Assembly: GCA_016647705.1 (NCBI GenBank)
Contig: CM028335.1
Span: 43,249,526-43,313,525 of the forward strand
Reading direction: 5' to 3'
Length of the DNA stretch: 64,000 bases
From: Eucommia ulmoides
Lineage: Eukaryota > Streptophyta > Magnoliopsida > Garryales > Eucommiaceae
Part shown: positions 3,569 to 59,639 of the stretch, piece after piece
Numbering within the stretch: the first letter of the stretch is position 1
Layout of the letters: each line of letters begins with the position of its first letter
Notes under the pieces: generated by a model
The model's database searches: none
What the model saw: only the letters and a program-made list of their open reading frames with translations
Told to the model about the DNA's origin: nothing
Position numbers and translations under genes: made by a program

Positions 3569-4111
3569 CATACCTAGGCAAAGAGACCAAGAAGATGAAG
3601 AAATAGGTGGACAAGGCTAGATGGTCACTAGAGTTCAAGGAGGGCAACTTGGTTCTTGTGAAACTTTTATCGCAACAGTTCGAAACTCTAAGGAAAGTTC
3701 ACAAGGGCCTAGTTCGGCATTACGAGGGTCCCTTTCTGGTAATAAATTGTGTAGGGAAGGTCTCGTACAAACTCTTTTTCCCTCCAAAGTTGAAGATACA
3801 TCCTGTCTTCCATGTCAATTTTTTAAAACCGTATCATGAAGACATAGAAAAACCAAAACGCAGGGCATCAAAACGGGAACTAACTACTATAATAACCACT
3901 TTTAAAAAATAGGTTGAATGCGTACTAATCGATCGAGTCATACAGAGGAAAGGCGTGCTAAACTACCAAAAGTACTTGATCAAGTGGAAGAAACTTCCAG
4001 ATAGCAAAGCGAGCTGAAAGCACGAAGACTTATTATAGAGATTTAAGGATCATATCCAAAGGTACAAGGATGAAGGAGTGATGAGGGCATCACAAAAATA
4101 GGTGGGAAAAA
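3569..4111 (+). pseudogene. Chromovirus integrase C-terminus with GPF motif and chromodomain (broken)
   Basis: Continues the protein interrupted at 1955. Visible are FKEGNLVLVKLL, the GPY/F-type motif in RHYEGPFLVINCVGKVSYKL, HPVFHVNFLKPYHED, then a chromodomain-like tail with YLIKWKKLPDS. Stops occur at 3604, near 3910, in the chromodomain and near its end, so no complete protein is made. The longest open piece is 3607-3912. The chromodomain places the source element in the chromovirus branch of Ty3/gypsy. The junction with LTR A2 falls inside the linker between integrase core and C-terminus. Confidence 0.88.
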
Positions 4112-9201: not shown

Positions 9202-10251
9202 TTTCTAATAAGAGGGTCAGGCCTAATCTAAGTCCAAATTTATATTCATGGATAAATAAAACCTGAGAACTATGTCTTTGACTTTAGAACGTAAGTAATT
9301 CCCTTCCCAAAATAATAAATAATAATGAAGTAAATAAAAATATATAAAAAAATAAAAATAAAATAATAATAATAATAATAATAATAATATTTATTAATGA
9401 TAATAATAACAATAATAATTTTAATAATAATAAATAATAAATAATTTAAATTAAGATTTATTTTACATATCCTGTATATACTAGCATGCATGCATATTTA
9501 CTGTATTTTACTGCATTTATATTATTGTCTCTAAATACTACATTTAAATTTTTGTCTTTACATTCCTGCATTTCATTACTATATACACTCTCCAACGCAT
9601 GAGCACTCACTTTACATTGCATATCATAATGAAAACCCAAGCCGTAACCCTCTTAGGGATAGAGAGGCCAACAGTAGAGGTTGATGTCGGTGATTTCATC
9701 ATACTAAACTAAGCCCTGAAAACCCTTAGGATAGAAAGAGGCTTTAATGGAAGCAAGGTTGGGGGGTTTTTCCCATAGGATCCAGCTACGAACCTTACCT
9801 CTCTCAAACTACCACCCAACAATGGATGTTTCCTCGGGGAGGACACCGAAGGTTTGAAGGTCTAGGAACCGAAGCTTTCTAGGATATGATAGAAGAAAAG
9901 CCATGAACCGTATATAGTGAGCTTAAGATAGAGGAAAAATCGAAACCCTCTCTATTTAGGACACTTATCTTGGAGAGAGATTTTTTTTTTCCTTCGGTAC
10001 AATTATTCATATAATTGTTATAATAGGTAGATAGAATAAAATGTCTAGGACAAGTAGGGGCATAATAAATGGTGTAAGAGTCCTTGTTCAATCCCACAAA
10101 TTACTAACTTCTTCAACGTCTAAAAAACATTTTCTAAAATTTAAATACAAAGCAAGCTACATTAGAGAACAAGAATCATTATTTTACTTAACACAATATA
10201 TCCTTTAAGTATAAACATTAAATCCTAAATGCCCATTTCATCCATAATAAT
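9202..10251 (+). other. Element B leader region
   Basis: Non-coding sequence between PBS and the A3 insertion. It includes a TAA-rich microsatellite (9347-9441). Short open stretches on the - strand here are low-complexity artefacts. The last five bases (ATAAT) are the target site duplicated by A3. Confidence 0.6.
9347..9441. repeat. TAA/ATA microsatellite
   Basis: Near-continuous AAT/TAA triplets, purest at 9361-9389 with interruptions on both sides. Confidence 0.85.
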
Positions 10252-11625
10252 TGGTGGCATAATATTATGTTGCCACTTTCACTATAAGTATACGAGTCAA
10301 GTTTTAGTAGAGTGTGAAGAGTAAGGGTTATCATTTACACAGGGATTGGTTGAGAATATTGTCGAGTACCGTAATTATCATAACCTAATTTTATCTAGGC
10401 GATAGGAAATGAAATTTATAATTAACAATATACTCATACTAAATACTAATTTATCTAATTATACTATATTACTAATATGAGATGTTTAAGGGAATGGATT
10501 ATCTAGGGATTAACTTCGTTTACAAATACGCATTTGATCTCGTTTTACTGACGTTAACGGTGTTCGACTTATCTTACAATCTTTGTATCGAAAACTCATT
10601 TACTCCCTCTCCCAAGTGACAAGTGAATGAATATGTGACTTCGCGTTAACGCCGAAGTCCCCCTCTAGCGTTTTTTAGAACACAAAGTTACATGAGTCTT
10701 GCCCTAATGTCATTGATTGCACACTCTCTAACTCTCTCCCAGGTTATTAGATCGTCGCGTTGTGTTTAAACTCACGTCCGAATCCGGGGTTTCCTCTCCC
10801 GAGTGTCAAACCCCGTATTCTTAATATATTATAACAAGCATAATAATCAAAGAACAAAGAACAACCATTAACAAAACACCAATTTCAAAACCACATATTC
10901 ATAAATTATAGTAATCCCTAGACAATATCTATTTATCTAATGGTCATAACCGTATATACAATGACAAGCAAGCTAAACATGCTCAAACCATAATCCAAAG
11001 TTAAGAAATAAAGAAAGAAACAATAGAAACTAGCCGTTGTTCGAAGATTTGGTGCTAAAACCGTTCCGAGATCGCTTCTCCTTCTTCACAACGTGTTCTT
11101 CTCCTTCAGATTTGGTGGAGCATTCCCCAATAACCTCTCAACCTTATTCTCACCCTAGGATCTCTCTTATAGCTGAATTAGAGGAGAGGAGGAAGATATA
11201 GGGCTAAAAAATATCTAAATTGTGAGCAGAGAGACCGCTGCACTGTGGTTAAGTTAGTTTGGTCACAGCCTCGGCGGTGGACTCAGCGGTGGGAGTAGAA
11301 ACCTCTCTGTTGTTTCACCACCTCAGCGGTGGGCTTTAAGCAAAAAAAGGCCTTCTCTACATATTGACCACTACGACGGAGGTCTGGACTCCACGGCGGT
11401 GGGCTGTATTTTAGAATTTTACCTTTATGCTTGTTTTCCCACTGTTCTTCCATCGTTCTTGATCTGATTTAATCGTTTATGATCTATTTTCATCCTTTTT
11501 TACCCCCACACACCTAATTTATACAAAAATAAATAAAAACGTATGAAAACGTATTAAAATACTATAATAACACTCGAAAACTAACAAGTTCGGTTTGGAA
11601 ATAGATATGTAAATTAAACCTATTA
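10252..11625 (-). repeat. 3' LTR of A3
   Basis: 1374 bp, + strand start TGGTGGCATAA and end CCTATTA, where the usual final CA has become TA. It has one copy of the 190-bp sub-repeat (about 10570-10760). GGCGGTGG-type motifs in U3 (11260-11400) are mostly eroded. Confidence 0.88.
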
Positions 11626-11640
11626 AATACCCCCAAACTT
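11626..11640 (-). promoter_or_regulatory. Polypurine tract of A3
   Basis: Read on the - strand: CAAGTTTGGGGGTATT abutting the LTR. The same purine run borders the 3' LTR in A5 (30623), A6 (40448) and A7 (51138). A second look-alike lies at about 12268-12283. Confidence 0.65.
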
Positions 11641-13060
11641 GGAATTTTGCTTGTCCCTGAGAAAAACACTCACACTAAAATAAAAAAACACAACTAAATT
11701 AAATAACATAAACAATCTAAACATAACGATATGCGAGTTTTGAATTCTTCTATCGACCAAATTATTTTCCCCTCAACAACCCCCAATCATATCGAGTTCA
11801 GGTGGTAAAACGCACCATATGATGTTCTAGAATTTCGACATTCAATAATGGTAAATACCATTCTAGATCCTTTCAACGTGTATGTGCGAGACTCAATGAT
11901 ATAACTATCCAACAATCGGATTGGATTATCCACCAACGAAACTCACGACTTAAAACGTAAAGGATTAGGATAGCCATATGCTTGATTGGGTTCCACACTC
12001 CAATAATGTAGGCTTAAAAGTTCATAATGATCAGAAGGACTTGGTTCAGTTTTGGGAAAACGGCCAAGGGTATATCGGGAATATAAAATAGGTTTATGTT
12101 GTTAACTTAACATTACCCAATGATCAACGCTTGGCACACTTACACTCAAACCCCCATAGATAAATTGGAAATAATTCGGAAAAATCATTAAAGACCGACA
12201 TACTCACTTGTCAAAAGAAACATAAATTGAACAATATTTACATAAGTTTCTTTTTTTTCAAACTTACCATACCCCCAAACTTATTCAATTTTTAGAATTT
12301 CACGGGTATGGTTAAAATGAAAGAAAAGCGACAAGTGAGTACTCAAATACCAAACCAATCAGAAGTTCGCCCTAAACCCAACCATTCACTTCAAGTAGCA
12401 TATAGGAATGCTAACTTGATTCACTCAAATTGTGCCTTTAATTCAGCGATATAGGTTTGGAAAAATTTCAATTGGCCAGGATATTTGTTTATGTGTTCAA
12501 AATTGAAATTGCATTTAGGCTTTAACAGGGTAACAAGGGATAAACATATAACATAGTAAGCTTAAAAGGCTCAAGTGACAAAATGAATGCCTAAATCACA
12601 TCTCCTGAACTACCTCGCCTAGGATTTCGCCTTAAGTTTCCCCTCAATCAGGTTCTAGAATCCTTAAATTGTTATGCATTTGGCTAATAGATAATCAGCC
12701 TCAAATCAATTGAATATAAATATATTAAGTCTATATGCTCGTGCAAATTAGGATCAACAATAACTTTCACCAAAACACATTGTCAAGAACACAAAACACA
12801 CATGCATGGGTATTACCCTTGACCTCAAAAAATAACTAGGGGATAATATCATCATCAGGTAATGGCCCAGATGAACGCAAAACTCAACATGCAACAACAA
12901 CAACACAAAAACATTCTACACTAAACAAACATACAATACAGTAAAACAGTAAAACATACTAACATCCTACACATCACCGCTAAACTTAAAACAGTCAGTG
13001 TCCTCAATGACCCATCAGCGATCCCATTGAAAGCATAAAGCATGATATTGAAGACGAGGG
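11641..13060 (-). other. Non-coding 3' internal region of A3
   Basis: About 1.4 kb without a credible frame, yet closely matched in A6 (40460-41940) and A7 (51150-52640), and more loosely in A5. Blocks such as GTTCTAGAATTTC, CTTGATTCACTCAAATTGTGC and CAAAGAC/CATGATATTGAAGAC recur. Conservation without coding suggests cis-acting function or simple shared descent. Confidence 0.6.
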
Positions 13061-13236
13061 ATTAGAACACGTACCTGGGAGGCGAGAGAATCTCGCCTCT
13101 GAATGAAGTCGACTGTGATAAATTTAACTTATTTTTGCGTTGGGTTGCCTCCCAAGAAGCACGTGGTTTATTGTCCTCATCCCAACACGGAGAATAACTC
13201 ATCAAAGAGAGGTTTTTGCCTGTAGTACGTGTCATA

Positions 13237-14181
13237 CTACACAATGTATGGGTCTTGATTTTGAACGCCCTCAAGACTGGAGAGATATGACAATGAATGG
13301 CTCGATCTTTCAACTCGGCTCAGCTCTGAATTTTGTGCTTGGGGAGCTTGAACGTACTGAGCTGGAAATGGGGTAGGGTAGGTGAGCCACATCGGATCCT
13401 CATAGATACGATCATCTTGGATCGAGCGCGGCATCACCAACTGGAATTCAAACGGTGAAAACTCACAACAATTAATATGTGAATCTCCATTGCTAATCCA
13501 CACTTGGGTTTTCTCTTCATTAAAATCTTCATTAATGAATTCTCTTAAGCTCCTCCCATTCGTATTCAATTTCTCACGGTGGCTTTCACATTCGGATGTG
13601 ACATGCCCATTTCTCAATGCCACCGCTTCTGATTTGGCATCAACAAAGTAGATAAGCTGACTGATTTGCATCTGCAAAGACGTTACGGTCGCATCAATAT
13701 CGGCGTAGACCGCCTCAATATAATCAAGATGATCCTCGTGCTCGTTAAGTCAGTCTTGCATCTCTCTCAAAAATGTCTTGAGTCTTTCCATAACAATGGC
13801 GAACACGTCTTCCATGGCAGAAGAAGACTCCACATCTTGAACCGGAGTGTCAATCCATAGCACAATAGTGTTGGAACAATCCCCCAAACTTTGGTGACTT
13901 GGTGAATGATTCCAACTTTGATAATCAAAGGCCACCATTTCCTCCAACGACCAAAGGGCATCGTCCACGGTTAGGTCGTAGAAGGAGAAGGTACTATTTC
14001 CTCCTTCCACCCATGTTCTGGTTACGGCTGATAACCCATTGAGAAAATTCAAGAGTTGACATTCCCTCGGGAAATCATGGTTTGAAAACTAGAATAGGAG
14101 CTCGTTGTAAGGATTCCAAGCGTAATAAAATGGCTCGGAATCCCAATGAAAGAAATGAATCAATACTTGTCGATCTAACAT
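13237..14181 (-). pseudogene. Gag-like protein of family A, A3 copy (two in-frame stops)
   Basis: One frame of 315 codons from the ATG at 14181 (MLDRQVLIHFFHWDSEPFYY) to the stop before 13237. It is broken by two in-frame stops, near 14090 and at 13747-13749, and by no frameshift. Residues about 15-95 resemble the retrotransposon Gag core: an aromatic WDSEPFYYAW region, F.NH.FPRECQLLNFLNGL, an RTWVEGGN stretch and LTVDDALWSLEEMVAFDYQSW. This follows the pattern of Athila/Tat Gag (CPHHG.P...FYNGL...T.EEAYE.LE.MA..NY). A heptad-like segment (HLDYIEAVYADI...LQMQISQLI) follows, then an acidic C-terminal part with DPMWLTYP and DPYIV. No CCHC zinc knuckle is seen. Presumed role: particle formation and RNA packaging, perhaps with proteins of an autonomous relative. 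Confidence 0.75.
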
Positions 14182-14192
14182 CTCCAAGTACC

Positions 14193-14275
14193 CTGCATAA
14201 GAAATAAAAACAAAACTACAAGCAAAAAATTATACACAAAAGAAATGCCTAAATTAAAATCAGGTCATTACTCAC
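14193..14275 (-). other. Likely intron in the A3 leader
   Basis: On the - strand GTGAGTAATG (from 14275) fits a donor and TTATGCAG (ending 14193) fits an acceptor after a T-rich tract. It is 83 nt long and ends 11 nt before the Gag ATG. A7 keeps the same signals (53675-53760). The donor is mutated in A6 and both ends are weak in A5. Confidence 0.5.
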
Positions 14276-14301
14276 AATATCAACAATAATCTAAAAACCA
14301 A

Positions 14302-14319
14302 TCCCCAGCAACGGCGCCA
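14302..14319 (-). promoter_or_regulatory. Primer binding site of A3, tRNA-Asp type
   Basis: On the - strand TGGCGCCGTTGCTGGGGA, complementary to the 3' end of plant tRNA-Asp (CCCCGGCAACGGCGCCA) with one mismatch. It lies six bases from the LTR. Athila-type elements use the same primer. This sets the - strand polarity. Confidence 0.88.
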
Positions 14320-14325
14320 AAAACT

Positions 14326-15712
14326 TGGTGGCGGAATACTATGTCACCACTTTCACCACAATTGTACGGGTCAAGTTTTAGTAGAGTGGGAAGAGTAAGG
14401 GTTATCGTTTCCACAGGGATTGGTTGAGAATATTGTCGAGTACCGTAATTATCATAACCTAATTTTATCTAGGCGATAGAAAATGAAGTTTATAATTAAT
14501 AATATACTTATACTAAATACTAATTTATCTAATTATACTATATTACTAATATGATATGTTTAAGGGAATGGATTATCTAGGGATTAACTTCATTTACAAA
14601 TACACGTTTGATCTTGTTTTACTTACGTTAACGGTGTTCGACTTATCTGACAATCTCTGTATCAAAAACTCATTCACTCCCTCTCCCAAGTGACAAGTGA
14701 ATGAATATGTGACTTCACGTTAATGCCAAAGTCCCCCTCTAGCATTTTTTAGAATATACAGTCACATGAGTCTAGCCCCAACATCATTGATTGCACACTC
14801 TCTAACTCCCTCCCAAGTTATTAGATCGTCGCATTGTATTTAAACCCTAGTCTAAATCCAGGATTACCTCTCCCGACTGTCAAATCTCGTATTCTCAATA
14901 TATCATAACAAGCATAATAAACAAGGAGAAATGGAAAACACAATCAAATAACAAAGAACAACCATTAACGAAACACTGATTTCAAAACCACATATTCATA
15001 AATTATAGTAATCCCTAGATAATATCCGTTTAGCTAACCGCCACAACCATATATATAATGATAAAGTAGCTAAACATGCTCAAACCATAATTCGGAGTTA
15101 AGAAATAAAGAAAGAAATGAGATAAACTAGCCGTACTCCAAAGATTTGGTGCTAAAATCGTTCCGAGATCGCTTCTCCTTCTTCATAACGTGTTCTTCTT
15201 GTTCGGATTTGGTGGAGCATTCCCCAAAAACCTCTCAACCCTATTCTAACCCTAGGATCTCTCTTATGGCCGAATTAGTGGAGAAGAGGAAGATATAGGG
15301 CTAAAAAAAATTTAAATAAATATCTAAATTGTGTGCAGAATGACAACCGTGGCGATAGTTAAGTCGGTTTGGTCATGGCCTCAACGGTGGACTCAGCAGT
15401 AGGAGCAGAGACCTCTCTGTTATTTCACCACCTCGGTGGTGGGCTTTCAGCAAGAAAAGGCCTTCTCTGCATATTGACCGCAGCGGCAATGGTCTGGATG
15501 CCACAACGGTGGGATATATTTCAGTATTTTGCCTTTATGCTTGTTTTCCCACCGTTCTTGATTCGATTTGATCATTTATGATCCATTTTCATCCCTTTTT
15601 ACCCCATGAACCTAATTTATACAAAAATAAATAAAAACGTATTAAAATACTATAATAACACTCGAAACTAACAAGTTTGGTTTGGAAATAGATAGGTAAA
15701 TTACACATATCA
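14326..15712 (-). repeat. 5' LTR of A3
   Basis: 1387 bp, + strand start TGGTGGCGGAATAC, end CACATATCA. Closely collinear with 10252-11625, with scattered C/T and G/A differences. One copy of the 190-bp sub-repeat (about 14640-14830). Confidence 0.9.
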
Positions 15713-17339
15713 ATAATGTACTTAATACCTACTCTAATCAAATCACAATTATAATTTGCCTTTAAAATGCACAATAAGTAAAACGTAATAGCTTGTGCCA
15801 AACAAAGTTATCTAAGCTTCGCCCACTAAGAAAACACAAAGTAATCTACTTCGATCATGCAAAATCACGCCGATCTTACCAAAATATAGGAAAGTGTCAT
15901 CACCAAGTCAAATCAGGACTGTGTGATCTAAATAATAACCATACCTTAGGTTATGTTTTCCCTAGGGTTTTTGTGTCATATCCTAAGCATATATTTTTTT
16001 TCTCATAAATCCTATACAGTAAGAATTATGCACCTTTAGGAAGACATTTTGTTTAGTTTGAAAGCGCCTTATGTTGGTCAAAATCTGTTCTGATAGGAGG
16101 CCACCTAAGGTTTACCAGTCAGTCTGTCAAAATAAAGTCGCCCTCAATAAGATATCATGAGATCAAAGGTGTCTTAGAACCTTATTCCATCCCTAGGAAT
16201 GATAATCCATCTTTTGAGGAAGAAAAATGATAAGTTCCGCCATTAGGTCCTATGGAAAATGATCCAAGTTTTGAGAAAAAAAAAAAAGGATGATTCCTTC
16301 ATTAGGTCCTAAGAGCATTGATATATTTTTCATGGAAGAAAATAGATGAATCTACCATCATGTTCTAGGATCAATTATCCCTACTTTGAAAAAAACTAGT
16401 AAAGAATAATTATGCCATTAAGTTCTAGGGGCCATGATCCATGTCTTGAGAAAAAAATGACAACTTTGTCTTAGAGTCCTAGGAAGAATGATTTGTATCT
16501 TGATGATAAATGGTTAATCATGCCATAGTCCTAAGATGACTATAACTTTTAAACTTGAGGATGAACCAAAAGTTGTAAGCTACTTTGGTTCTATGAAGCC
16601 ATGTCCAAATCGAGGTTTGTCTAGAACATGCCTTAAAGTTGTTTGCTAGAGCTACGTCTTCCTAGGTTAACATATTTACAGTACAAACATAATCATCCAT
16701 GTAGATACACTCACACACAGTCAAGAATATAACCATGCATAAAGATAGGGTAATCTGCATCCTTAAAAAATATTCATTAGTAAAGGTCTAGATTGTTAAT
16801 TACTTAATAAATCTAGAAAAATCTGCTTTAGGTGACTTTTACTAAAAGCCATCTGAAATCTACTCTCAAGATCATAAAATGGACCCGATCTCTCCCTTTG
16901 TTTGAAGTACTCAGGACGACTCCAAAATTTTGAGGATGCAAGAAGATATTACTTCCGACATAAATGCTAAGCCAGATAAACCCAGCCTCGCTCTTCCAAG
17001 GAGAGAAGAAGGAGGATTAACTGCCATCACCTAGAAATACCCTTAGCATGATAAAATGTTGGGATAAATTATGAATCGAGAGGTTCCCTCATGGAAAATG
17101 GATTGCAACTGAAAATTAAAATGGCCTTACTAAACTAGAAGACTTCATTTGTGCTACCACCGCAAGTCAAGACCTGCCTTGCTGGGAGAAGAACCTTGAA
17201 CCTATGGAAAACTCAATCCAATGAGATATTTCTAAGATATGGAAGCAGATGGACTACATGATCCGATCTATTAGTAAGATCGAACAAGTCATCTGGACCC
17301 TTATCTAGCCAGAGCACCAACATTTCATCTCTATTTCTG
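15713..17339 (+). other. Element B internal region between leader and Gag remnant
   Basis: Sequence continuous with 9202-10251 once A3 is removed. There is no reliable frame; many stops. It contains a decayed tandem repeat (16190-16545). In Tat/Ogre elements this interval would hold the leader, an extra ORF and the first part of gag; any such frames are unreadable here. Confidence 0.5.
16190..16545. repeat. Decayed 50-65 bp tandem repeat in B
   Basis: About six imperfect copies of a unit holding ATGATCCAT.TTTTGAG, a run of A and ATGCCATTAGGTCCTA(A/G). Spacing varies between copies. Confidence 0.65.
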
Positions 17340-28988: not shown

Positions 28989-30622
28989 TGGTAGCGAATT
29001 ATTTCGTCGCTACAATACCACAAGTGTACAGGTTAAGTTTTAATGGTATAGGAAGAGTAGGGTTGTCGTATCCACAGAAATTGGTTTAAATTGTCGTTAA
29101 GTACCGCAATTATCGTAACTTAACTTTATTTAGGCGATTGAATTTTGGGTTTTTAAAACTAAAATAAATTCAAATACAAAAGTAAAATAAAATATAATAT
29201 GTATTTTCTATGCACTAATGTTCTAGGGGTTTGATTTCATCTCGTTATTCTCATGATATCCTATTAAGAAATTATTAGTCAATTTCGTTCATTCAACAAT
29301 CAAGATCTTTAAAACTCACTCACCACCTCTCTCGAGTATAAAGTGAGTGAATATGTAACCATGTCAAACCAATATCCCTTTCAAGAGTTTATATGATTAC
29401 ATACGTCTTGCCCCAACATTATAGATTACACAAGTTCTAATAATCTCCTGAAACATTAGAACTTGTGTTGTGTTTAATCCTAGTCTGAATCCAGGGTTAC
29501 CTCTCCCGAGCGTCAAACCCCCCGTATTCTCAAATCAACTACAATATCATATACAAGCATATAATAGAAGTAATAAAACAATCAACACAATTGAATGGCT
29601 ATTCTAATTTATCAATTTAAAACTCGATTACCTCCCGGCCTCATGAGATCCTAAATTCCCAACTTGAATACTTAGGTGTTGATTTTCTCCCAGATTCACA
29701 TAACCTACGTTATGCACTCCCAAATCCAGTTACGAATTCAACATCTCCCGAGTATAAAATTCGCAACCCAACATCATCTAAATCATTGGCTACATGAATC
29801 AAACACGTTAGGCCTAGGGAGTGCATAAAATGGAATTAAATCCAACAATAGACAAAATATTCACAACATGGTTCAAATGAGACTACGTCAAGCCCTAAAT
29901 CTAAATGACAAACACAACATAGACAAATCAATAGCTAATCTTCTCAATAAATTCATGTATGTAAGAATATTCAACACAAAATTACAAATACAAACTCAAA
30001 ACACAAGATTAGGGAGAGAGAAAGGAAGAGAAAATCTTATTCTGGGTTTAGGATTTGGATCTTCAACTATACGTGTCACAAATGATGTTTTCTTTGTCGA
30101 TCTCGCATCAAAACGCCATCACCCAGTATTTTCGCCTTCAAAATCGCCTCAATTAGCTCCAAAATCATACCCTCTATTATTCCTCTCTCTCCTCTCTTAA
30201 AAATTAACCCTAAAATATCTATTTAATGTGTTAGATCTGACCGTCAGTGCTGCAGCGAGCTAAGGGTAGGAACACTGCCATTTGCGCGCTGCAGCAAGCC
30301 CAAGGCAATGTTGACGCCTGGTTCGTATGTTTGCCATAACGTTCTTGTCCGAACTCCGATTGAGATGATTCCAAAACCTATGGGAAGCTAAGATGTAGAT
30401 ATACAACTTATATGTGTTGCAAGATTCCAAAATCGAATTGAATAATTGTCAAAAAAAGGCCTTGAAATTACTACACCTGAACCGATTTTGCATATTTTTT
30501 TCCATTTGTTTATAAACCTACAAAACAACGCAAAAACACATTAAACTAACAAAAATAGTTGAAAACACAAAAATATTTGAATCTAAAAGTACTTGATTTG
30601 TTGATAAATAAACCACTCATCA
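28989..30622 (-). repeat. 3' LTR of A5
   Basis: 1634 bp; + strand start TGGTAGCGAATTATT, end CACTCATCA. One copy of a shortened sub-repeat. U3 palindromes have a CTGCAG core (GCTGCAGCGAGC and GCTGCAGCAAGCC, 30248-30302). The open stretch 29868-30200 is LTR sequence, not a gene. Confidence 0.9.
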
Positions 30623-32340
30623 AATACCCCCAAACTCAAACGTTTGTTTGTTCTCAAGCAAAAGAAAAAAAAAACACAAATCAAGTACTAAAACACTACA
30701 GATAAAATGTGAGTTTTATATCGAATCGATGACTGTCCAAGAATCTCTGATGGCACTAAATGCTCCAAGCTCAAAACAAATGCACATATCGAGATTATCT
30801 AGATTTTCGACTTTAGGCATCAATTTCAATCCACTCAAGACTCTAGATGTGTCTGTGCATGCACAATCACTCTCATCCAACCAAACGAGCCTTGGATATA
30901 TTTTTGTGCTAAGGCGACATTGAAAAATCTCTAGATAAATAATGCAAGAACAACCATAAGCCCATTTTTTGTGTCACTCTCCACTAATTATGTAGATGCA
31001 TATGTCATTAGAGATCAAAGGACTTTGTGGGTTGTAATGTATGGTTAGGGTAAAAGGTAGATGAAAATGTCATGTTTAGGCTCAAATCACCCTAGGCATA
31101 TATCACAACTCATGGATCTTGCACGATTTCTGAGAAAAATTCACCGACTCCCTCTTTCATCAAATATCTTCTTTCAATCAATCCCACGATGTATTATTCA
31201 CAAAACACCCCAAAACAACAACAAAAAAATTCCTTTTTTTTTTTTTTTGTCCATATAGGTGAGAACCACACCCCCAAACTCAAACTCAACATTGTCCGCA
31301 ATGTTGCAGGGAAAAACGAAAGGGACATATGATAGTCACCACTATACTACAACTACTTTTTATTTTTTTTACAAAGATAACTCATATACAAAATGAAACA
31401 CACAACCCAACCCGCCAACGACTTTCCAAACACAACCCAAACTCACCCTGACACTCAATGATCCATGCAATAATACTAATTAGTGACGGGTTTAGGAAAT
31501 GAAAAAACATGTAGCGGGTCGGATGCACAAAAGTGGGTAACGAAAAAATTAGGCAATAAAGTTCAACAGGGGTAACAAAGGGTAAACAAATTTTTTTCAG
31601 GATTAGCTTTAAAGGCCCAAACGATCCAAATAATGCCTAAATCATCTCTCCAATAACACATAACCTAGCATTTCACTTCAAGTTTCACTCAAATGGGTTC
31701 TAGTGTTCACGAGATAGAGAAGCCTACCTAAAGTACATAAATGGTCTCCAAGTACTAAAAAGGCCAAGTGATTGTGATTCATGGTGCTTGAGTGTAACGA
31801 GTCGAGAGTGAATTTCAATTAACACAAGTCAAGCACATAAACATCTCAATACAATACATTTCAAACAACCTAAGAGAACATCATGTGTCTAAACTCATCA
31901 GCGATTTCAAGTCATATCATCTCAACGAAACTCACAATTGATATAAACAAACCAAAGAAAAGAAACTAAAAACATGGCCACAAGAACACAGGTTATACGA
32001 AGAAAAGTCACACACACAAGCATACCCTAACCCAAACCAGTATAAACCAACATGTGTCCCACCCCCAAACTCAAAAATCAAAGATGTAATCAGATTAAGC
32101 ACAAGGGAATAGCACATGTACCGGGGAGGTGAGACAATCTTTCCTCCGAGTATGGTCGGCGGTGATGCTCCAAGTAAGGTGACCGATGTGGGGTTTTCTC
32201 CCATATCGTGAATCCTTAGGCCCCATTATTTGAAAACTTAGGTTGCCTCCCAAGAAACACTTGGTTTATTGTCCTTGGCTTGACACAGAGAAGGGCTCGT
32301 CAAAGTACGGCTTCCGCCCATAGTATGTGTCAGACAACAT
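30623..32340 (-). other. Non-coding 3' internal region of A5
   Basis: Begins with the polypurine tract (30623-30640, complement of AATACCCCCAAACTC). No supported frame. Extra CACCCCCAAACTC motifs occur near 31270 and 32060. Positions 32220-32340 match the Gag tail region of A3 and A7. Confidence 0.6.
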
Positions 32341-32445
32341 AATGAATGGGTCTTTGTTCAAGATGCCCTCAAGCTTGGTGAGATGTGACATTAATCGGCA
32401 GGTACTCTCAACATGACTCAGCTCCATCTCATGTGCTTGGTTGGC

Positions 32446-32853
32446 CTAAATTAACGGTGCTAAAAGTGGAGGATGACAGGTGAGCCACATCGGATCCTCA
32501 AATATATGTTCTTGTTTGATCGGTGTTGGTATCACAACATGGATCTCAAATGGTTGAGAATCACAAGTTTTATTTTGTGATTCTTCATCATCAATCAACT
32601 CTTGGGTTTCTTCCTCATTAGAATCATCATCATTACACGAACCCAAGTTTCTCCCACTTGTGAGCGGTTCCTCACGGTGGATTTCAATGATCGGCGGTGG
32701 CAACACCAATTGGATTTCAAGAGATGAGAACTCAAAATCATCTTTTGATTTGTCATCAATGAACAATTCTTGAGTCTTATCCTCTTTCGAATCATCCTCA
32801 TAAGGCACCTCCAAAGTCTTCCCACGTGCATTCGTTTCCTACTCGCTCACATT
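32446..32853 (-). pseudogene. Family A Gag-like C-terminal piece in A5, with internal duplication
   Basis: The frame at 32446-32814 encodes the acidic C-terminal part of the Gag-like protein, ending in EDPMWLTC as in A3 and A7. An approximately 165-bp stretch is duplicated: TQELFIDDKS...SSLEIQLVLPPPI and TQELIDDEES...QPFEIHVVIPTPI, where A3 and A7 have one copy (...EFQLVMPRSI, ...EIQLVMLPSI). The N-terminal side is cut by the nested LTR at 32854. Confidence 0.65.
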
Positions 32854-34439
32854 TGTTACACGCTCACGTATTGACTACTCACAAGTGTAAGAGGTCAAAA
32901 TTTTAGTATGATGGATCTTTTAAGATCAGGTATCGTATCCACAGGGATTAGTTGTCGTTATTATCGAGTACCGTGTTTATCATGTCCTAATTTTATCTAG
33001 GTGATAAAAATGTAATTTAATTAAATACTAATACTAAAATACTAATTTAACTATACTAATACTATATTGAGATAGTTCGGAGAGAATAGATTGTCTAGGA
33101 ATTAGTTTTGTTTACTAATACGCGTTCAATCTCGTTTTAGTTTATGTTAACAGCATTCGACTTATCTGACAATCTTAGTTCGTAAACTCTTCCGCCACCT
33201 CTCCCGAGTATAAGACGAAGGAATACGTGACTTCGTGTCAACTAAGAAGTCCCTCTCAATATCTTAACGACCCTAGGTCGCGTGAGTCTCGCCCCAACAT
33301 CATTGATTACGCACAATCCAACTCCTTCCCGGGTTATTGGATCATCGCGTTGTGTTTACCCTATCGATAATCTTAGTTCGTAAACTCTCCCGCTACCTCT
33401 CCCGTGTGTAAGACGAGGGAATACACGACTTCGTGTCAATGAAGAAGTCCCCCTCAACGTCTTAACGACCCTAGGTCACGTAAGTCTTGCCCCAACGTCA
33501 TCAATTGTACACAATCCAACTCCCTCCCGGGTTATTGGATCGTGACGTTCGTTTACCCTAGTCCGAATCAGGGGTTTGTTAAACCCCAAATTCTCGATAT
33601 ATAAATCTAAGTATAATCAATAAACAAGAATGATAAACACAATCAAACATTGAAGAACAACCACAAACAAAACACAAACTCAACTAAACAACGTATTCAT
33701 AAATTTATTAATAATCCCTAAACAACCTATGTTTAGCCAATGGCCATAACCATGTATACAATGTAAAATGGTGTAAACATGCTCAAAAACTACTGAAATG
33801 AAGAAAATAAAGAAAATAAATGAACGACTTAGCCGACATCCAAATATTTAGTGCTAAAACCGTTCACCGCTCGTTTCCTCCTTCATCTTTTTCCTCGGGT
33901 TGAGAGCTCTCCCTCAAAAATCGATCAAAGTTGCCCTAAAATATAGTCTAAGGGCCCTAGGAGGTGATTGCATTGGAAGAGAGGAGAAGATGAAGGGTTT
34001 AAAGAGGCAAAAAATCCCAAAAAATATCTTAAATCTGTGCAGAAGCCACCGCCGCGGTGGTGGAGTATGTCGGTTTAATGTTCACCTAGGTGGTGAAGAA
34101 AGCGATGGATTCAAGACCATCGTGTAGTTTCACCGCCATGATGGTAGATCTCACCGCTGTGACGGTGGATGTCCAGCAAGATAAGCCCACTCTGTATTTT
34201 TACCGCCGGGTGGTGGGTTGTTGTTCTGAATATTGCCCTCGTGCTTGTTTTTCTACCGTTCTTCGACCGTTTTTGGTCCGAATTGATCGTTTATGCTCCA
34301 ATTTCATACCTCTTCACCCCACACACCTGATTTATGCAAAAAGAATAAGAACTAATTAAAACGTAATAAAATAAACTATAAAAATACTCTAAAACTAACA
34401 AAACTGGTTTGGAAATATATAGGTAGATCACACCTATCA
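32854..34439 (-). repeat. Family A solo LTR nested in A5
   Basis: About 1586 bp; + strand start TGTTACACGC (TGTAC subtype), end CACACCTATCA. Two copies of the 190-bp sub-repeat (about 33170-33550). U3 palindromes mostly have a CCGCGG core (ACCGCCGCGGTGG near 34049). Flanks ACATT and ATGAA do not match. Comparison with A3 and A7 shows that about 160-180 bp of Gag sequence is missing at the site. Confidence 0.82.
33170..33550 (-). repeat. Two-copy 190-bp sub-repeat
   Basis: Two tandem units, each with CCACCTCTCCCGAGTGTAAG or its equivalent, GACTTCGTGTCAA...AAGAAGTCC, CCTCAACGTCTTAACGACCC and CACAATCCAACTC. Confidence 0.8.
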
Positions 34440-34446
34440 ATGAACC

Positions 34447-34899
34447 TTATGTGTCGCCTATTTCCCTCATAATGTTTTGAGTTTCCATCATGAATGCATT
34501 GAACATGTCTTCTAGATTGGGAGAAGACTCCACAAGTTTGTGTGGGGTGTCAATCCATAGCGCCGAAATATTGGAATAATCCCCCAAGCTTTGGTGGCTT
34601 TTTGAATAATTCCAACTCCGATAGTCAAAATAGCTCATGTCTTACAACGAAAAAATAGGCATCGTCCACGGTTAGGTCGTAAAAAGAGGTGGTACCATTT
34701 CTTCTTTCTACCAAAGTTCTTATTGCAGCATGTAACCCGTCGAGGAAATTCAGTAATTGACACTCTTTCGGGAAACCATGATTTGGGAATCGAATAAGAA
34801 ACTCTTTATATCTTTCGCAAGAACAATAAAATGGCTCGGAATCTCGTTGAAAAAAACTCATGAGGACTTGTTGATGAGCTATCTCCAAGTACCTCGCAA
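34447..34899 (-). pseudogene. Family A Gag-like core in A5 (start lost, frameshifted)
   Basis: Reads QRDSEPFYCSCERYKEFL, then IRFPNHGFPKECQLLNFLDGL, RTLVERRNGTTSFYDLTVDD and, after a frameshift near 34630, YFDYRSWNYSKSHQSLGD. The ATG of A3 and A7 is ATA here. It matches the A3 protein along its first 150 residues, then meets the nested LTR. Non-functional in this copy. Confidence 0.72.
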
Positions 34900-34996
34900 A
34901 ACAAATCAAACTAAAAACAAAAATTAAAAATAAAATAAAAGCCTAGATTAAAATCAAGTTACTTATTCACGATATTAACAACAATCTAAAAGTCAA

Positions 34997-35014
34997 TCCC
35001 CTACAACGGCGCCA
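34997..35014 (-). promoter_or_regulatory. Primer binding site of A5, tRNA-Asp type
   Basis: On the - strand TGGCGCCGTTGTAGGGGA, six bases from the LTR at 35021; two mismatches to the tRNA-Asp complement. Confidence 0.85.
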
Positions 35015-35020
35015 AAAACT

Positions 35021-36656
35021 TGGTAGCGAATTATTCCGTCGCTTCAATACCGCAAGTGTATGGGTCAAGTTTTAATAGTATATGAAGAGTAGAGTTGTCG
35101 TATCCATAGGGATTGGTTTAAATTGTCGTTAAGTACCGCAATTATCGTAACTTAACTTTATTTGGGCGATCGAAATTTGGGTTTTTAAACCTAAAATAAC
35201 TAAAATAAATACAAATGAAAAAGTAAAATAAAATATAATATGAATTTTCAATGCACTAATGTTCTAGGGGTTTGATTTCATCTCGTTATTCCTATGTTAT
35301 CATATTAAGCAATTATTAGTTAATTCCATTCATTCAATAAGTAAGATCTCTAAACTCACTCACTATCTCTCCCAAGTGTAAAGTGAGTGAATATATAACC
35401 ACGTTAAAACTGATATCACTATCAAGAGTTTAGATGATTACATGCGTCTTGCCCCAACCTTAGGGATTGCACAAGTTCTAATAATCTCCCGAAACATTAG
35501 AACTTGTGTTGTGTTTAATCCTAGTTCGAATCCGGGGTTACCTCTCTTGAGCATCAAACCCCGTATTCTCAAATCAACCACAATATCATATACAAGCATA
35601 CAATGGAAGTAATAAAACGATAAACACAATTGAATGGCAATTCTAATTCATCAATTTAGAACTCGATTACCTCCCGGTCTCATGAGATCCTAAATTCCCA
35701 ACTCGAATACTTAGGTGTTGATTTCCTCCCGGATTCACAACAACCTACGTTATGCACCCCCAAATCCGGTTACGAATTCAACCTCTCCCCAGTATAAAAT
35801 TTGTAACCTAACATTGTCTAAATCATTGACCACATGAATCAAACACATTAGTCCTAGGGATTGCACAAAATGGAATTAAATCTAACAATAGACAAAATAT
35901 TCACAACATGGTTCAAACAAGACTACGTCAATCCCTATATTTAAATTACGAACACAACATAGACAAATCCATAGCTAATCTTCTCAATAAATTCATATAT
36001 GTAAGAATATTCAACACAAAATTACAAATACAAACTCAAACCAAGATTAGGGAGAGAGAAAAGGAAGGGAAAATCTTCTTATGGGTTTGGGCTCTAGATT
36101 TTCAACTATACATGCCACAAATGATGTTTTCTTAGTCGATCTCACATCAAAACGCCATCACCCGGTGTTTTCGCCTTCAAAATCACCTCAATTAGCTCCA
36201 AAATCGCCTTCTCTATTATTCTTCTCTTCAAAATAAACCCTAAAATATATATATTTAATGTATCAGCTCTGACCGTAGGCGCTGCAGCAAGCTAAGGGCA
36301 GAAACACTGCCATTTGCGTGCTGCAGCGAGCTCAAGGCAGTGTTGATGTCTGGTTCGTATTTTTGTTGTACCTTTCTCGTCCAAACTCCGATTGATGTGA
36401 TTTAAAAACCTATGTAAAGATAAGACATAGATATAGAACTTTTGTTCTTTGAGATTTTCCAAAATCGAATTGAATCATTGTCAAAAAAGGTCTTGAAGTT
36501 ACTGTACCTGAAAAGATTTTGTATATATTTTTTTCATTTATTTATAAACTAACAAAACAACACACAAAAAAAAATTAAACTAACAAAAATACTTGAAAAC
36601 ACACAAATATTTGAATCTAAAAGTACTTGATTTGTTGGTAAGTAAACCATTTATCA
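35021..36656 (-). repeat. 5' LTR of A5
   Basis: 1636 bp, almost the same length as its partner and collinear with it. CTGCAG-core palindromes at 36280-36335. + strand end CCATTTATCA. Confidence 0.9.
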
Positions 36657-38565: not shown

Positions 38566-40447
38566 GGGTGGCCACAAATAATGCGCTGCCATTTTCACCG
38601 CAAGTGTACGGATCAAGTTTTAGTATAATGGACCTTTCGGTTTGGTATCGTATCCACAGGGATTGGTGTTGTTACTATCGAATACCGTGATTATCATAAC
38701 TCGACTTTATCTAGGCGACAAAAATGTAAGTTAATTAATTAATACTAGTACTAATATAGCCTAATTTATTCTATACTAATACTAATATTAATATGAGATA
38801 GTTTTGAGAGAATAGGTTGTCTAGGATTAGTTTCGTTTACGAATATGTGTTCAGTCTCATTTTAGTTTATGTTAATAACGTTCAACTTATATGACAATCT
38901 CAGTTCGTAAACTCCTCTGCTACCTCTCCCGAGTGTAAGACGGGGGAATACGCGACTTCGTGTCAATGAAGAAATCCCCCTCAACATCTTAAAGACCCTA
39001 GGCCGCATGATTCTCACCCCAACGTCATTAATTATACACAATCCAACTCTTTCCCGGGTTATTGGATCGTCACGTTGTGTTTACCCTATCTACAATCTCA
39101 GTTCTAAAACTCCTCTGTCACCTCTCCCGCGTGTAAGACGATGGAATACATGACTTCGTGTCAACTCTGAAATCCCCCTCAACGTCTTAACGACTCTAGG
39201 CCACGTGAGTCTTTCCCCAATGTCATCGATTGTCCACAATCGAAACCCCGATCGGGTTATAAGATTGTGACGTTCGTTTATTCAAGTCCGAATCCGGGAT
39301 TTGTCAAACCCCGTATTCTCGATATGTAAATCTAAGCAATATAAACAAACAATATGGTATACACAATCAACATAAAAAATAACAATCGCAAACAAAACAC
39401 AAACTCAACTAAACAATGTTTTCATAAATTATATTAATAATCCCTATACAACCTATGTTTAGCCAATGGCCATAACCACGTATACAATGTAAAATAGCGT
39501 AAACATACTCAGAAACTACTAAAATATAGAAAAAAAAAAAAAAAAAAAAAGAAGAAATGAGCTACTTAGCCAATATCCGAAGAATAGCCACTAGAACCGT
39601 CCACCGATTGCTTCCCTCTTCATCCTCTACCTCGAGTTGAGAGCTCTCCCTAAAAAATCCCTAAACCTAACCCTATATATGGCCTAAGGCTTTAGGGGCC
39701 AAAGATATCAGAAGAGAGGAGGAGAGAAGGGTATTTTAGGCTCAAAAATATCAAAAAAATATCTATTCTGCGCAGAGGCTACCGTCGCGGCGAAGGGTTC
39801 ATCGCCGCAGCGATGGTTGGTCAGTGGAATAGTAGTAAGGCATCCTGAACTTTCACCGCTGTGGTGGTGGTATTCACCACTATGGCGGTGAAGTGTTTTG
39901 TTGAAAATGGCCATCCTGTATTTTCATCGCCGCGGCGGTGGTGTCACCGTTGCAGCAGTGACACCCTTTGGTATTTTAGCTGTAACTTCTTCATTCGAAC
40001 TTCGATTGAGGTGATTCAAAAACCTATGGAAATATATACAACTTAAATGTTTTGAGTTTCCCAAAAATATAATTTAATAATATTCAAAAAAAGGTCTTGA
40101 AGTTACTGCACCTGTACCGATTTTGCAGGTTTGGTGACCGCCTAGGCAAAGAAGTAGGCGGTGGACTTGGAAATGTTATTAGCATATTCATAGCCTAGGT
40201 GGAGGTCTAGATGCCTAGGTAGTGGGATTCTTTCACAATGTTGCCTCCTTGCTCATTTATCCACCGTAACTTTGTTCGCTTTGGTTCGATCACATCGTTT
40301 TCGCTCCAATTTCATACCTTTTCACCCCACGCACCTATTTTAATACAAAAAGAATAAAAACATATTAAAACTTATAAAAATAACTATAAATGTACTCGAA
40401 AAATAACAAATTTGGATTAAAAATATATAGGTAATTTACACCTATCA
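38566..40447 (-). repeat. Left (3') LTR of A6, composite U3
   Basis: 1882 bp, + strand start GGGTGGCCAC (first base changed from T). Two sub-repeat copies (38885-39260). Its U3 holds a CCGCGG-type palindrome block (39780-39965), a segment shared with A5 and A7 (about 39985-40130), then a CCTAGG-type block (40138-40222). It looks like a join of two U3 types. A poly-A run lies at about 39530-39550. Confidence 0.8.
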
Positions 40448-42262
40448 AATACCCTCAAACTCAGAATTTTGCTAGTCCTCAAGCAAAACACCCACACAAT
40501 ACAAGAAAGTATACAAACTAATTACGAAATTAAAAACTACAAACGAAAAATATTAAAAACAATAATGTGTAAGTTTTGATTATCATCTACCGGCCGAAAT
40601 ATTTTTCCCTCGTCGGCCCCCAATCCTATTAAGTTCAAGTATAAATCACACCATGTGGTGTTCTAGAATTTCAACGTTCAAAAATAGTAAGCGTCATTCT
40701 AGATCTTGTTTAAGTGTGTATGTGATTAAACTGAAATATACTACTATCCATTGATTAGATGGGATTATCCCTAAATAAAGATCATGACATAAAACCTTTA
40801 CGGTATACGGAATCCATACGCCTGACCTGAGATCTATTATCCACTAATGTAGGCTCTTAGATTCATGAAGATCATTAGGGCTTGGTTAAATTTTGGGAAA
40901 ATGGCCAAGGGTAAATTTGAATAAAAAACGGGTTAACATCGTTAACTTGACGTTACCCAAGGCACATCGCTTGGCACTGTCACACTTGAAACCCCATAGT
41001 TTATTTTGAAACAACCCTGAACATATATTAAGAACAACGTACTCAGTTGTCATGTAAAAAAGAAACGATTTTTTTTTTTTTAACACACTCCCAAACTCAT
41101 TCTAATTTCTACATTTTTAGGAGTGTGCAAAAATGATTAAGTAATACATCCCTAAACGTATTTGAATTCTTACAACTTTAGGAATGTGCAAAAAAAATAT
41201 GAATGACAAACGACAAGCGAGTAATCGAATACCAAACCAATTAGAATTTCTGCCTAAACCCAACCGTTCACATCAAGTAGCAAAATGCTAGCTTGATTCA
41301 CTCAAATTGTGCCTTCAGTTTAGCGATATAGGTTTGGAAAAAGTTCAATCGGCTAGGGTATTTGTTAAGTGTTCAGAATTGAAACGGCTTTTAGGCTTCG
41401 ATAGGGTAACGAGGGGTAATGATTTATTAGGGTAAGCTTAAAAGGCTCAAGCGATCAAATGAATGCCTAAACCATATCTCCTAAACAACCTCGCCTAGTA
41501 TTTCGCCTCGAATTTCCCCCAAATAAAGTTCTAAAATCCCTATTGTCATAAAATTGATTGACGGATAATCGGTTTCAAATCAATAAGATAGTACAATATT
41601 GAGTTTACATGCTCTTGCATTTAGGATCCACAATAACTTTTACTAAGACGATACGTTAAGCACACAAAACTCACATGAATGAGCATTACGCTCGACCTCA
41701 AAACAATCAGGGGACAGAGTCATCATCAGGTGAAGGCCCAGATGACGTCAAAATGTAGCACAAAACAACATCTAAACTAACAAACTAATCCTAAACAAGC
41801 ATGCACATGATAAAAATAGTAAAACATGCTAAAAACATTTACACATACTAAAACATACTACACATCACCACCAACTCAACATAGGTGGTGTCCGAACAAG
41901 CCGTCAGCGATCCCAATGCCAATATATAGCATGATATTGAAGACGGGGGTTTAGAACACATACCTAGGAGGCGAGAGGATCTCGCCTCCGACTCAAATTG
42001 ACGGAGATGTATCTAACTTATTTGTGACCCTGGGTTGCCTCCCAAGAAGTGCTTGGTTTAATGTCCTCGGCCCAACACATACCCTCAAGACTGGCGAGAT
42101 TTTCAATGATTGAACCGCAGGAGTACCTGTCGATCTAACATCTTCAAGCATCCTGTAGGAAAACAAAAACAAAACTACAAAAATGAAAATTATATACAAA
42201 AGAAATGCCTAGATTAAAATCAAGTTATTTACTCCCAATATCGATAGTAATTAACAAGACAA
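40448..42262 (-). other. Internal region of A6, gag deleted
   Basis: Matches the 3' non-coding region of A3 and A7 up to about 42070. It then jumps to the first codons of gag (ATG complement near 42139), so about 0.85 kb of coding sequence is missing. No frame survives. The intron donor equivalent is GGGAGT instead of GTGAGT (42236). Confidence 0.7.
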
Positions 42263-42280
42263 TCCCCGGCAATGGCGCCA
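42263..42280 (-). promoter_or_regulatory. Primer binding site of A6, tRNA-Asp type
   Basis: On the - strand TGGCGCCATTGCCGGGGA, six bases from the LTR; one mismatch to the tRNA-Asp complement. Confidence 0.87.
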
Positions 42281-43234
42281 AAAACTTGTACACACTAGGA
42301 TTTTACATCCTCGTGGTATATAACTACTCGCAAGTGCACGAGGTCTAGTTTTAATATAATGGATCTTTTAATATCAGATATCGTTCCACTGGGAATGGTG
42401 TAATTTAGTTGAATATGGTGATTGGCATAATCTCATATTATCTCGACTATTCAAAAATGGTTTATATTTTATTTAATCTACTAAGATAAATGACAACAAT
42501 TAAGTTAGTTCTAATTACACTAATTACTTAGGTATTGATTTCTTTCACATAATGCATACTTGATTTCATTTAGTTATCTATAACAGTGTTTATCTATTTC
42601 GACAATCTCTATATCTACAACTCCTTTGCTACCTCTCCCGAGTGTAAGATTTGGGATTACATGTCAACGAAGAAGTCCCCCTCAATGCCTTAATGACCCT
42701 AGGTCACGTGAATCTTGAGCCAATGTCATGGATTGCATACATTCTAACGCCCTCCCGGGTCGTTAGAACGTCACGTTGCGTTTACCCTAGTCCGAATCCG
42801 GGGTTACCTCTCCCGAGTGTCAAACCCCGTGTTCTTGGTTTATCAATACAAGCATAATATCAAGAATAATGGTAAACACAATCTAATTTAGACAAACATT
42901 CATTAAAGTAACATTAATTCATTCAACTAACATTTACATGATTTCAATAATACCTAAGTAACATTTAACTAATACTACATAATCATAGCTATATAACATA
43001 CAAAACAAGAGTGATTCAACATCATTAGATATGGAAAAGTAATTACAAAGATAAAAACAAGAGAAGAACGATCAAATCTAAAAGTGAAATGATCCACTGT
43101 CGCTAATGATCAATCTGCAAATGATTCATCTTTGCCCAAATGATGAATCTCCTCCTTGATCTCTCAAAGATAGCTTAATAACTCTATTTTAGGGTTAGGG
43201 ATGCTCAACAACTTGTTTCAAACGAGTGGGAGTG

Positions 43235-43243
43235 GTATTTATA
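43235..43243 (-). promoter_or_regulatory. TATA box of the A6 right LTR
   Basis: On the - strand TATAAATAC within GCCTATAAATACC, just downstream of the palindrome array in - strand sense. It marks U3/R and supports the array as upstream promoter sequence. Confidence 0.6.
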
Positions 43244-43289
43244 GGCTTAAGGTTTCAAAAATATCTAAACAGATATTTTCCTCTGTGCA

Positions 43290-43640
43290 GAGCTTATCGA
43301 CGCAGCGATTGGGATCACCGCTGCGGCGATGGGTTGAGTCAATTAGTGCACCTCTACAGCAGTGGGATTCCTACTATGGCGGTAAATATTTTTACGAACT
43401 CTTTGTTGTTTCACCGCTGCAGCGGTGGCTTCTATTGCTGCTGCGGTGGAGCCTTTGAGCAGAAATTAGACTTCTCTGTACTTTCACCACCGCGGCGGTG
43501 GGCCTTTTGCTACAGTGGTGGAGCCTATGAACAAAAATCACAGCTCTCTGTTGTTTTACCGCCGCGGCGGTGAGGCATTCAGAAGGAAAACACAACTTTC
43601 TACACTTTCAACTCCACTGCAGTGGATCTACCGCTATGAC
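43290..43640. repeat. CCGCGG/CTGCAG-core palindrome array in A6
   Basis: About ten copies of a CACCGC-core-GCGGTG motif in 350 bp. Cores are CCGCGG (43490, 43560), CTGCAG-like (43410, 43440) and variants. Some are perfect 14-16 bp palindromes. Confidence 0.78.
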
Positions 43641-43837
43641 AGTGACTTACTGTCATTAAACCTTATCTTTTTCCTTCGTTTCTTCGCCGTTCTCCCATTG
43701 TTTTGCTTGTTTATTGCTTGTTAACGTCCCTATACCTGACTTACATAAATACTAACAGAAACACAATAAAAGATTAATAAAACACTCGAAAATTGGCAAA
43801 TTCGGTTTAGAAATAGATAGGTATTTTACACCTATCA

Positions 43838-52740: not shown

Positions 52741-52745
52741 GGTTG

Positions 52746-53663: not shown

Positions 53664-53674
53664 CTTCAAGCACC

Positions 53675-53760
53675 CTATAGAAAAATAAAAACAAAAACTG
53701 CCAAACGAAAAAGTTATAAACAAAATAAATGCCTAAAGTAAAATTTGGTCATTTACTCAC
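53675..53760 (-). other. Likely intron in the A7 leader
   Basis: 86 nt. - strand donor GTGAGTAAATG at 53760, acceptor TTTTTCTATAG at 53675, T-rich before the acceptor. Equivalent in place and length to the 83-nt intron-like segment of A3. Confidence 0.5.
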
Positions 53761-53786
53761 AATATCAATAATAACCAAAAAGCCAA

Positions 53787-53804
53787 TCCCCAGCAACAGC
53801 ACCA
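53787..53804 (-). promoter_or_regulatory. Primer binding site of A7, mutated tRNA-Asp type
   Basis: On the - strand TGGTGCTGTTGCTGGGGA, six bases before the LTR; the changes from TGGCGCCGTTGCCGGGGA are all C-to-T. Confidence 0.8.
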
Positions 53805-53810
53805 AAAACT

Positions 53811-59504: not shown

Positions 59505-59639
59505 GGCCTTCTCTGGATAAAAAATCAGCCAATATATTATGTTTTCTAGATCGATGAATAATATCAAAATTATAATGCTGGAAAAATGTTTGTCAACCAT
59601 TATTTTATTATATTTAGGACTTGAAGGTAACTTATTAAA

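Follow-up and report, generated by a model that had tools for sequence, protein, structure and literature searches.

Three elements with a compact Gag frame

Within a 64-kb stretch of the Eucommia ulmoides genome (contig CM028335.1, positions 43,249,526 to 43,313,525; 64,000 nucleotides, here called the window), three long terminal repeat (LTR) retrotransposons, A3, A5 and A7, share a compact Gag-like frame on the minus strand and carry no pol. Comparison with further copies in the same genome (946.7 Mb, 391 contigs) indicates that purifying selection acts on this frame. Its product is predicted to hold the C-terminal domain of the capsid (CA-CTD) without the N-terminal side (CA-NTD). The features of the three elements, in window positions, are as follows.

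10252-15712, minus strand: element A3, a complete non-autonomous LTR element (self-BLAST and inspection of the ends)
10247-10251 and 15713-15717: A3 target duplication, ATAAT
14326-15712, minus strand: A3 5' LTR
14302-14319, minus strand: A3 primer binding site (PBS), one mismatch against the tRNA-Asp complement
14193-14275, minus strand: A3 putative leader intron, donor GTGAGT, acceptor TTATGCAG, just ahead of the Gag start codon
13177-14181, minus strand: A3 compact Gag frame, 334 codons and stop, interrupted by stops at codons 31, 144 and 315
13894-14181, minus strand: A3 predicted CA-CTD part, codons 1-96 (P0005 model; tblastn with the full-Gag CTD matches 14172-13918)
13654-13815, minus strand: A3 Gag coil part (tblastn with the full-Gag coil; BLASTP 47 % over 32 residues)
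13177-13410, limits approximate, minus strand: A3 conserved tail (YEDPMW ... LEGVxNQDP ... YDTYYxxKPLFDE)
11640-13170, minus strand: A3 non-coding 3' region, no pol
10252-11626, minus strand: A3 3' LTR, 88.6 % identical to the 5' LTR
28989-36656, minus strand: element A5, target duplication ACCAC, Gag frame broken by an LTR insertion
34450-34882, minus strand: A5 Gag N-terminal pieces, frameshift near 34640
32269-32838, minus strand: A5 Gag C-terminal piece
49358-55607, minus strand: element A7, target duplication GTCTA
52749-53663, minus strand: A7 compact Gag frame, with seven stops inside it and no frameshift

It was found by self-BLAST that related LTR sequences crowd the whole window. The three elements have TG...CA ends and exact 5-bp target duplications that all differ (ATAAT, ACCAC and GTCTA), confirming their description as independent insertions in an earlier account made from the letters alone (the sequence-only reading). 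Their LTR pairs are 88.6 % (A3), 88.6 % (A5) and 91.4 % (A7) identical. About 6 nt inside each 5' LTR lies a PBS complementary to tRNA-Asp, with one, two and three mismatches in A3, A5 and A7 respectively. With two LTRs, a target duplication, a PBS and a polypurine tract, the elements have the full anatomy of LTR retrotransposons.

The minus-strand frame common to A3, A5 and A7 is real. The sequence-only reading had given it about 306-315 codons and ended it in A3 at 13237; the sharing of the frame stands, but that position is the third in-frame stop (codon 315), and the conserved end YDTYYxxKPLFDE continues to 13177. Over 300 codons, A3 and A7 differ at 89 first, 65 second and 123 third codon positions. 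With stops read through, the database protein P0005 (described below) aligns to A3 at 14181-13195 (E 5e-58) and to A7 at 53663-52767 (E 5e-56). The A7 frame has stops and no frameshift, as had been claimed, and in A5 an inserted LTR of about 1.56 kb (approximately 32880-34440) interrupts the frame in addition to the frameshift. D and E abound in the tail, and neither the frame nor the inspected database relatives P0004-P0006 contain a visible zinc knuckle, which bears out the earlier description on both points. By eye, the A5 Gag tail (32449-32838, minus strand) contains an apparent internal duplication with two IQLVLP/IHVVIP blocks.

A further element of the group lies at 38567-43841, with Gag cut down to a few codons at each end (approximately 42000-42210) and its own two LTRs diverged further than the A3 pair. 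A tandem repeat of 164-198 bp is present inside several LTRs of the window (33163-33560, 38894-39274, 49826-50123 and 54282-54582) and absent from those of A3.

The absence of pol extends to related copies. A reverse transcriptase (RT) from the same genome, used as query, matched nothing in the window at E 1e-3, and among the 40 loci L001-L040 it matched only an 80-residue stretch of 34 % identity in L024. Seven further copies (L002-L008) run collinear with A3 across the 3' region; in L003 the collinearity stops at about 12010. The sequence-only reading had named pol at the same place in relatives as the finding that would count against a lineage lacking it, and none was found in the collinear copies. 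A recent simple deletion of pol was rejected on these independent collinear copies together with the RT search. An LTR pair flanks 14 of the 20 loci read at 10 kb. Eight of these pairs enclose 2.60-2.75 kb and the other six 1.8, 2.9, 3.3, 4.8, 5.2 and 5.3 kb, some of the latter being partial or foreign repeat pairs. Among the matches listed in two compact-Gag searches open frames reach at most 383 residues, compared with up to 1850 for full-Gag frames.

Selection and conservation across copies and relatives

Ratios of non-synonymous to synonymous substitution (dN/dS) were obtained from 31 copies as 465 pairwise counts on related copies, the pairs therefore not being independent; A5 and the duplicates L001-L008, L029, L032 and L037 stood outside this set. 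The median dN/dS was 0.41, and by codons 0.37 (1-90), 0.41 (91-180), 0.44 (181-335) and 0.23 (last 36). Control values were 0.51-0.93 in the other frames of the same alignment and 0.61-0.66 in the non-coding 3' region of 20 copies, calculated without the short L025 and L026. In-frame stops numbered 13.1 per 1000 codons, compared with 41-78 in the other frames. The ratio among copies, a check that the sequence-only reading had proposed, is thus not near 1, and these counts indicate that purifying selection acts on the compact Gag frame and that the acidic tail itself is conserved. An unconstrained frame was rejected on dN/dS and in-frame stop density together, and the elements fall outside the definition of a LARD (a large non-autonomous element without coding capacity) because the frame appears to be under purifying selection.

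For the A3-A7 pair alone dN/dS was 0.36-0.39 (bootstrap 0.28-0.55), and 0.27-0.30 after subtraction of the divergence that followed insertion; the single-pair controls are wide, at 0.57-0.99 in the 3' region and 0.59-0.73 in LTR frames. Shorter comparisons with A5 gave 0.16-0.51, with one interval reaching 1.26. The LTR divergences come from 12 of the 14 LTR pairs (L017 and L023 left out), and the rates applied to them, 1.3e-8 and 2.5e-9, are assumed; the former is likewise quoted in PMC5818461 and in a further paper.

The compact-Gag family is, by its sequence matches, large and high-copy. As DNA, the A3 frame gave 6,559 first-look candidates in the genome (40 scored, 41 matches), a 170-residue C-terminal piece gave 8,549 (150 scored, 150 matches) and a P0005 query 13,020 (129 scored, at least 187 matches); first-look candidates are not copy counts. 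The first 71 P0005 rows listed span nearly all of that protein, and four of them are free of internal stops. All 31 copies compared in detail carry at least one internal stop, and 16 have an indel that breaks the frame relative to A3.

Database relatives were reached with a profile of three N-terminal pieces (three proteins, 70 candidates) and with a wider alignment (20 proteins, 958 candidates); Morus is named for five of the 20. Three intact ones are P0004 (306 residues, Morus notabilis, annotated by one source as a retrotransposon gag domain protein), P0005 (306 residues, 43 cluster members) and P0006 (273 residues, 24 members). They have their entire architecture in common, through to a tail YEDPMWPA ... 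KLEGVxNxxP ... LYDTYYGRxPLFD, and the database relatives start with their own methionine just ahead of the CTD. The C-terminal piece of A3 alone returned 32 candidates in a protein search, none at E 1 or below; a plasmid search and a viral-contig scan yielded no relatives, and P0005 against PDB sequences gave three matches with a best E of 1.3.

Conservation is not confined to the frame. Across 19 copies (20 loci minus one), identity to A3 was 86.7 % in the 3' region, 83.0 % in the frame and 78.9 % at third codon positions, and the higher conservation of the 3' region suggests that it acts in cis. At 12266-12312, some 640 nt upstream from its 3' polypurine tract, A3 has a second polypurine-like motif, AAGTTTGGGGGT; A7 and most of L009-L028 carry it at the corresponding position. 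It is flanked by complementary arms, ACCACACCC ... GGGTGTGGT, that co-vary between some copies (the A5 arms are unlike these), so the motif possibly sits within a hairpin. RNAalifold was applied to 22 windows of the leader and 3' region. In sense orientation it peaked at z -8.0 (columns 826-975) and z -3.8 (columns 376-525), in antisense at z -4.7 (columns 751-900); shuffles numbered only 40 (sense) or 25 (antisense), and z carries no correction for testing many windows. The final window has few columns and is an artefact. The strongest usable sense score falls near the second polypurine-like motif. In the leader, an alignment of 24 copies, including L016 (part of the leader missing) and L024 (not aligning there), has the donor pattern in 17 and the acceptor pattern in 15, while the full-Gag relatives described below have no consensus donor at this position. 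The patterns suggest a leader intron.

A capsid half and its full-Gag relatives

The domain content of the frame was read largely through P0005. Pfam searches of eight pieces of the window returned nothing relevant (one weak MRC1 match), and a Gag domain scored above the Pfam cut-off only in P0005, where Retrotrans_gag (PF03732) covers only its second half, model positions 51-96 of 97. In the structure model of P0005 the domain comprises residues 1-96 and aligns with the CA-CTDs of Arc, PEG10, HIV-1 and Ty1 p22. The 50 Foldseek rows listed are capsid proteins without exception, and each of the 50 VIA-align rows listed falls on a CTD part. The predicted model and the Pfam half-domain agree with a stand-alone CA-CTD fold.

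Eight full-Gag regions of the same genome (L041-L048) were read for comparison. At a tblastn threshold of E 1e-3, the full-Gag NTD side matched seven of these eight, none of the 40 loci L001-L040 and nothing in the window, and the Gag middle matched L043-L047 only. The full-Gag CTD matched 29 of the 40 loci as well as A3, A5 and A7, and the coil 39 of the 40 as well as all three elements. The 150 full-Gag rows are the best-scoring ones, so that their full coverage of the model stems partly from this choice of rows, and the tblastn comparison is the fairer one. Taken together, the matches and the model indicate that the compact Gag consists of a CA-CTD, a coil and an acidic tail that is new and conserved, with the CA-NTD side and the Gag middle missing. 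The sequence-only reading had noticed neither the restriction to the CTD half nor the conservation of the tail. The compact Gag differs from the complete Gag of the Arabidopsis TR-GAG example discussed below in that its CA-NTD side is found in neither L001-L040 nor the window.

The origin of the compact elements is established by their PBS, LTR and Gag sequence. The tRNA-Asp PBS with junction CAAGTTTTTGGCGCC occurs in L043-L047, with one or a few bases different in some. The second half of the A3 LTR and the leader show about 64 % identity across 800 bp with L043, L045, L046 and L047 (E 5e-63 to 2e-69), and the 5' end of the LTR is common to A3 and L044 (71 % over 146 bp). P0005 and the L043 Gag share 44 % identity across 86 residues, and for the A3 coil against the full-Gag coil BLASTP gave 47 % across 32 residues. 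The full-Gag elements L043-L047 thus share with the compact ones the PBS junction, LTR second half, leader, Gag CTD and coil, but keep the whole Retrotrans_gag domain and the Gag middle. L043 has a stop-free Gag open frame of 1400 residues, and about 2-3 kb downstream of its Gag domain lies L049, which is open over 333 residues, matches RVT_1 at E 1.2e-26 and by coordinates is in frame with the L043 Gag. L043 with L049 has an open RT frame.

The sequence-only reading had postulated an Athila-like relative able to supply enzymes. A full-Gag relative that has the PBS junction and LTR sequence in common with the compact elements was identified, and the full-Gag elements are candidate helpers. The label Athila is our presumption, drawn from the motifs (PBS and Gag pattern); the compact element has no RT, and hence no RT-based classification. 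By eye, L041 and L048 represent another tRNA-Asp full-Gag lineage, with a Gag knuckle CX2CX4HX4C.

Elsewhere in the window, an RNase H-like stretch lies at 59649-59885 (minus strand; PF17917, E 9e-14) and resembles an endogenous pararetrovirus remnant; the neighbouring frames at 57743-58270 and 58857-59645 (minus strand) had no credible Pfam match. A Ty3/gypsy integrase-end remnant (SH3_Tf2-1, E 1e-14) is present at 3607-3909 (plus strand). Rfam gave no match in the window.

Proposed docking on a helper Gag and its alternatives

On balance, we favour the reading that these elements are an old, high-copy non-autonomous lineage from Athila-type Ty3/gypsy elements, whose reduced Gag most likely docks on a helper Gag and aids entry of the element's own RNA into helper particles. 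Docking, RNA delivery and the identity of the helper are what we infer here: the reduced Gag would bind the helper's full Gag via its CTD (and coil), this would help the element's RNA enter helper particles, and the helper's RT and integrase would copy and insert that RNA using the shared PBS and LTR ends. A CTD and coil without an NTD should be able to join a full-Gag lattice, not to build one. The frame is apparently selected in copies that moved, which makes a benefit to the encoding copy likely, and entry of its own RNA into helper particles would be the simplest such benefit.

Gag-only elements are already known. TR-GAG elements are a recognised class with a Gag domain and no pol (PMC8704663, PMC6022998), one of which was caught transposing in Arabidopsis (PMC8704663). 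They resemble the compact-Gag elements in having two LTRs, a Gag-like frame, no pol and enzymes from elsewhere (PMC8704663, PMC6022998), but the Arabidopsis element has a 562-residue Gag called full-length, whereas the compact frame has the CTD half, a coil and a new tail. In wheat, RLG_Quinta is the gag-only partner of RLG_Cereba, with shared PBS and LTR second half (PMC11302176). It is likewise an old gag-only lineage split from an autonomous one, with an extra domain without known function, but it is centromeric, its Gag homology is "very clear" and it is a proposed Gag donor (PMC11302176; compared by description only). No CA-CTD-only plant element was described in the literature searched, which covered few subscription papers, and within these searches the CA-CTD-only lineage is new.

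In domain content the compact Gag is like Ty1 p22/p18 and Drt2 of yeast, which are stand-alone CA-CTDs of the same predicted fold and act as dominant-negative blocks of capsid lattices (PMC8458377, PMC10951436). Their setting differs, p22/p18 arising from an internal transcript of complete Ty1 and Drt2 from a domesticated gene, whereas the compact Gag is carried by a high-copy non-autonomous element; its coil and acidic-tail module is not reported for p22/p18 or Drt2 in the available text (PMC8458377, PMC10951436). The main rival, which we regard as unlikely, follows from this likeness: a dominant-negative regulator that enters helper lattices as a CTD-only protein and blocks their completion, limiting the helper or the element itself. 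Such a role has been proposed for truncated Gag isoforms in sunflower, although these arise by splicing from complete elements and, in the reverse of the compact Gag, lack the capsid and retain the nucleocapsid motif (PMC7730604). Pure blocking of a helper would give the encoding copies no obvious favour, yet the frame appears selected in copies that moved, and the coil and conserved tail exceed the content of p22.

It is less probable still that the element is a Gag donor feeding structural Gag into a shared particle pool, as proposed for Quinta and TR-GAG. The compact elements, gag-only and sharing a PBS and the second half of the LTR with full-Gag relatives, parallel the Cereba/Quinta pair (PMC11302176), but the compact Gag has no capsid NTD and no zinc knuckle was seen. 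In Ty1 and related capsids the CTD carries the dimer interfaces (PMC8458377). Selection seems to have kept the capsid half with known dimer interfaces while the other half was lost, which makes shared building material a less likely role. In retroviral CA, the NTD is expected to be necessary for building the capsid lattice.

There is little to recommend a passenger remnant, that is, a functionless Gag leftover carried along by cis-acting LTR, PBS and 3' sequences. The internal stops in 31 of 31 compared copies, the frame-breaking indels in 16 and the conservation of the non-coding 3' region above the frame all accord with it, but it is opposed by dN/dS and in-frame stop density, by intact relatives of the same architecture and by the four stop-free rows among the 71 near-full-length ones listed. 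A capsid NTD supplied by an upstream exon through the splice-like donor and acceptor of the leader, which would make the mature protein an ordinary Gag, is scarcely credible and was rejected on genomic sequence. From the Gag frame to the end of the A3 5' LTR there is no minus-strand frame of at least 75 residues, and tblastn with the NTD side matched neither L001-L040 nor the window; the database relatives, moreover, start at a methionine of their own shortly ahead of the CTD.

Beyond docking on helper Gag as set out above, a wider proposal is offered only tentatively: a satellite lineage in more than one plant whose half-capsid plugs into helper particles and hijacks or tunes their assembly in the manner of Ty1 p22, here encoded by the parasite, with the conserved 3' region perhaps acting as a packaging ticket.

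These findings bear on why LTR elements without pol retain a Gag gene. A capsid half apparently kept by selection suggests that, to move, the element probably either joins a related complete element's shells or interferes with them. Docking or interference becomes testable with two small proteins, and a plant satellite retrotransposon would be linked to the fold of yeast copy-number-control factors.
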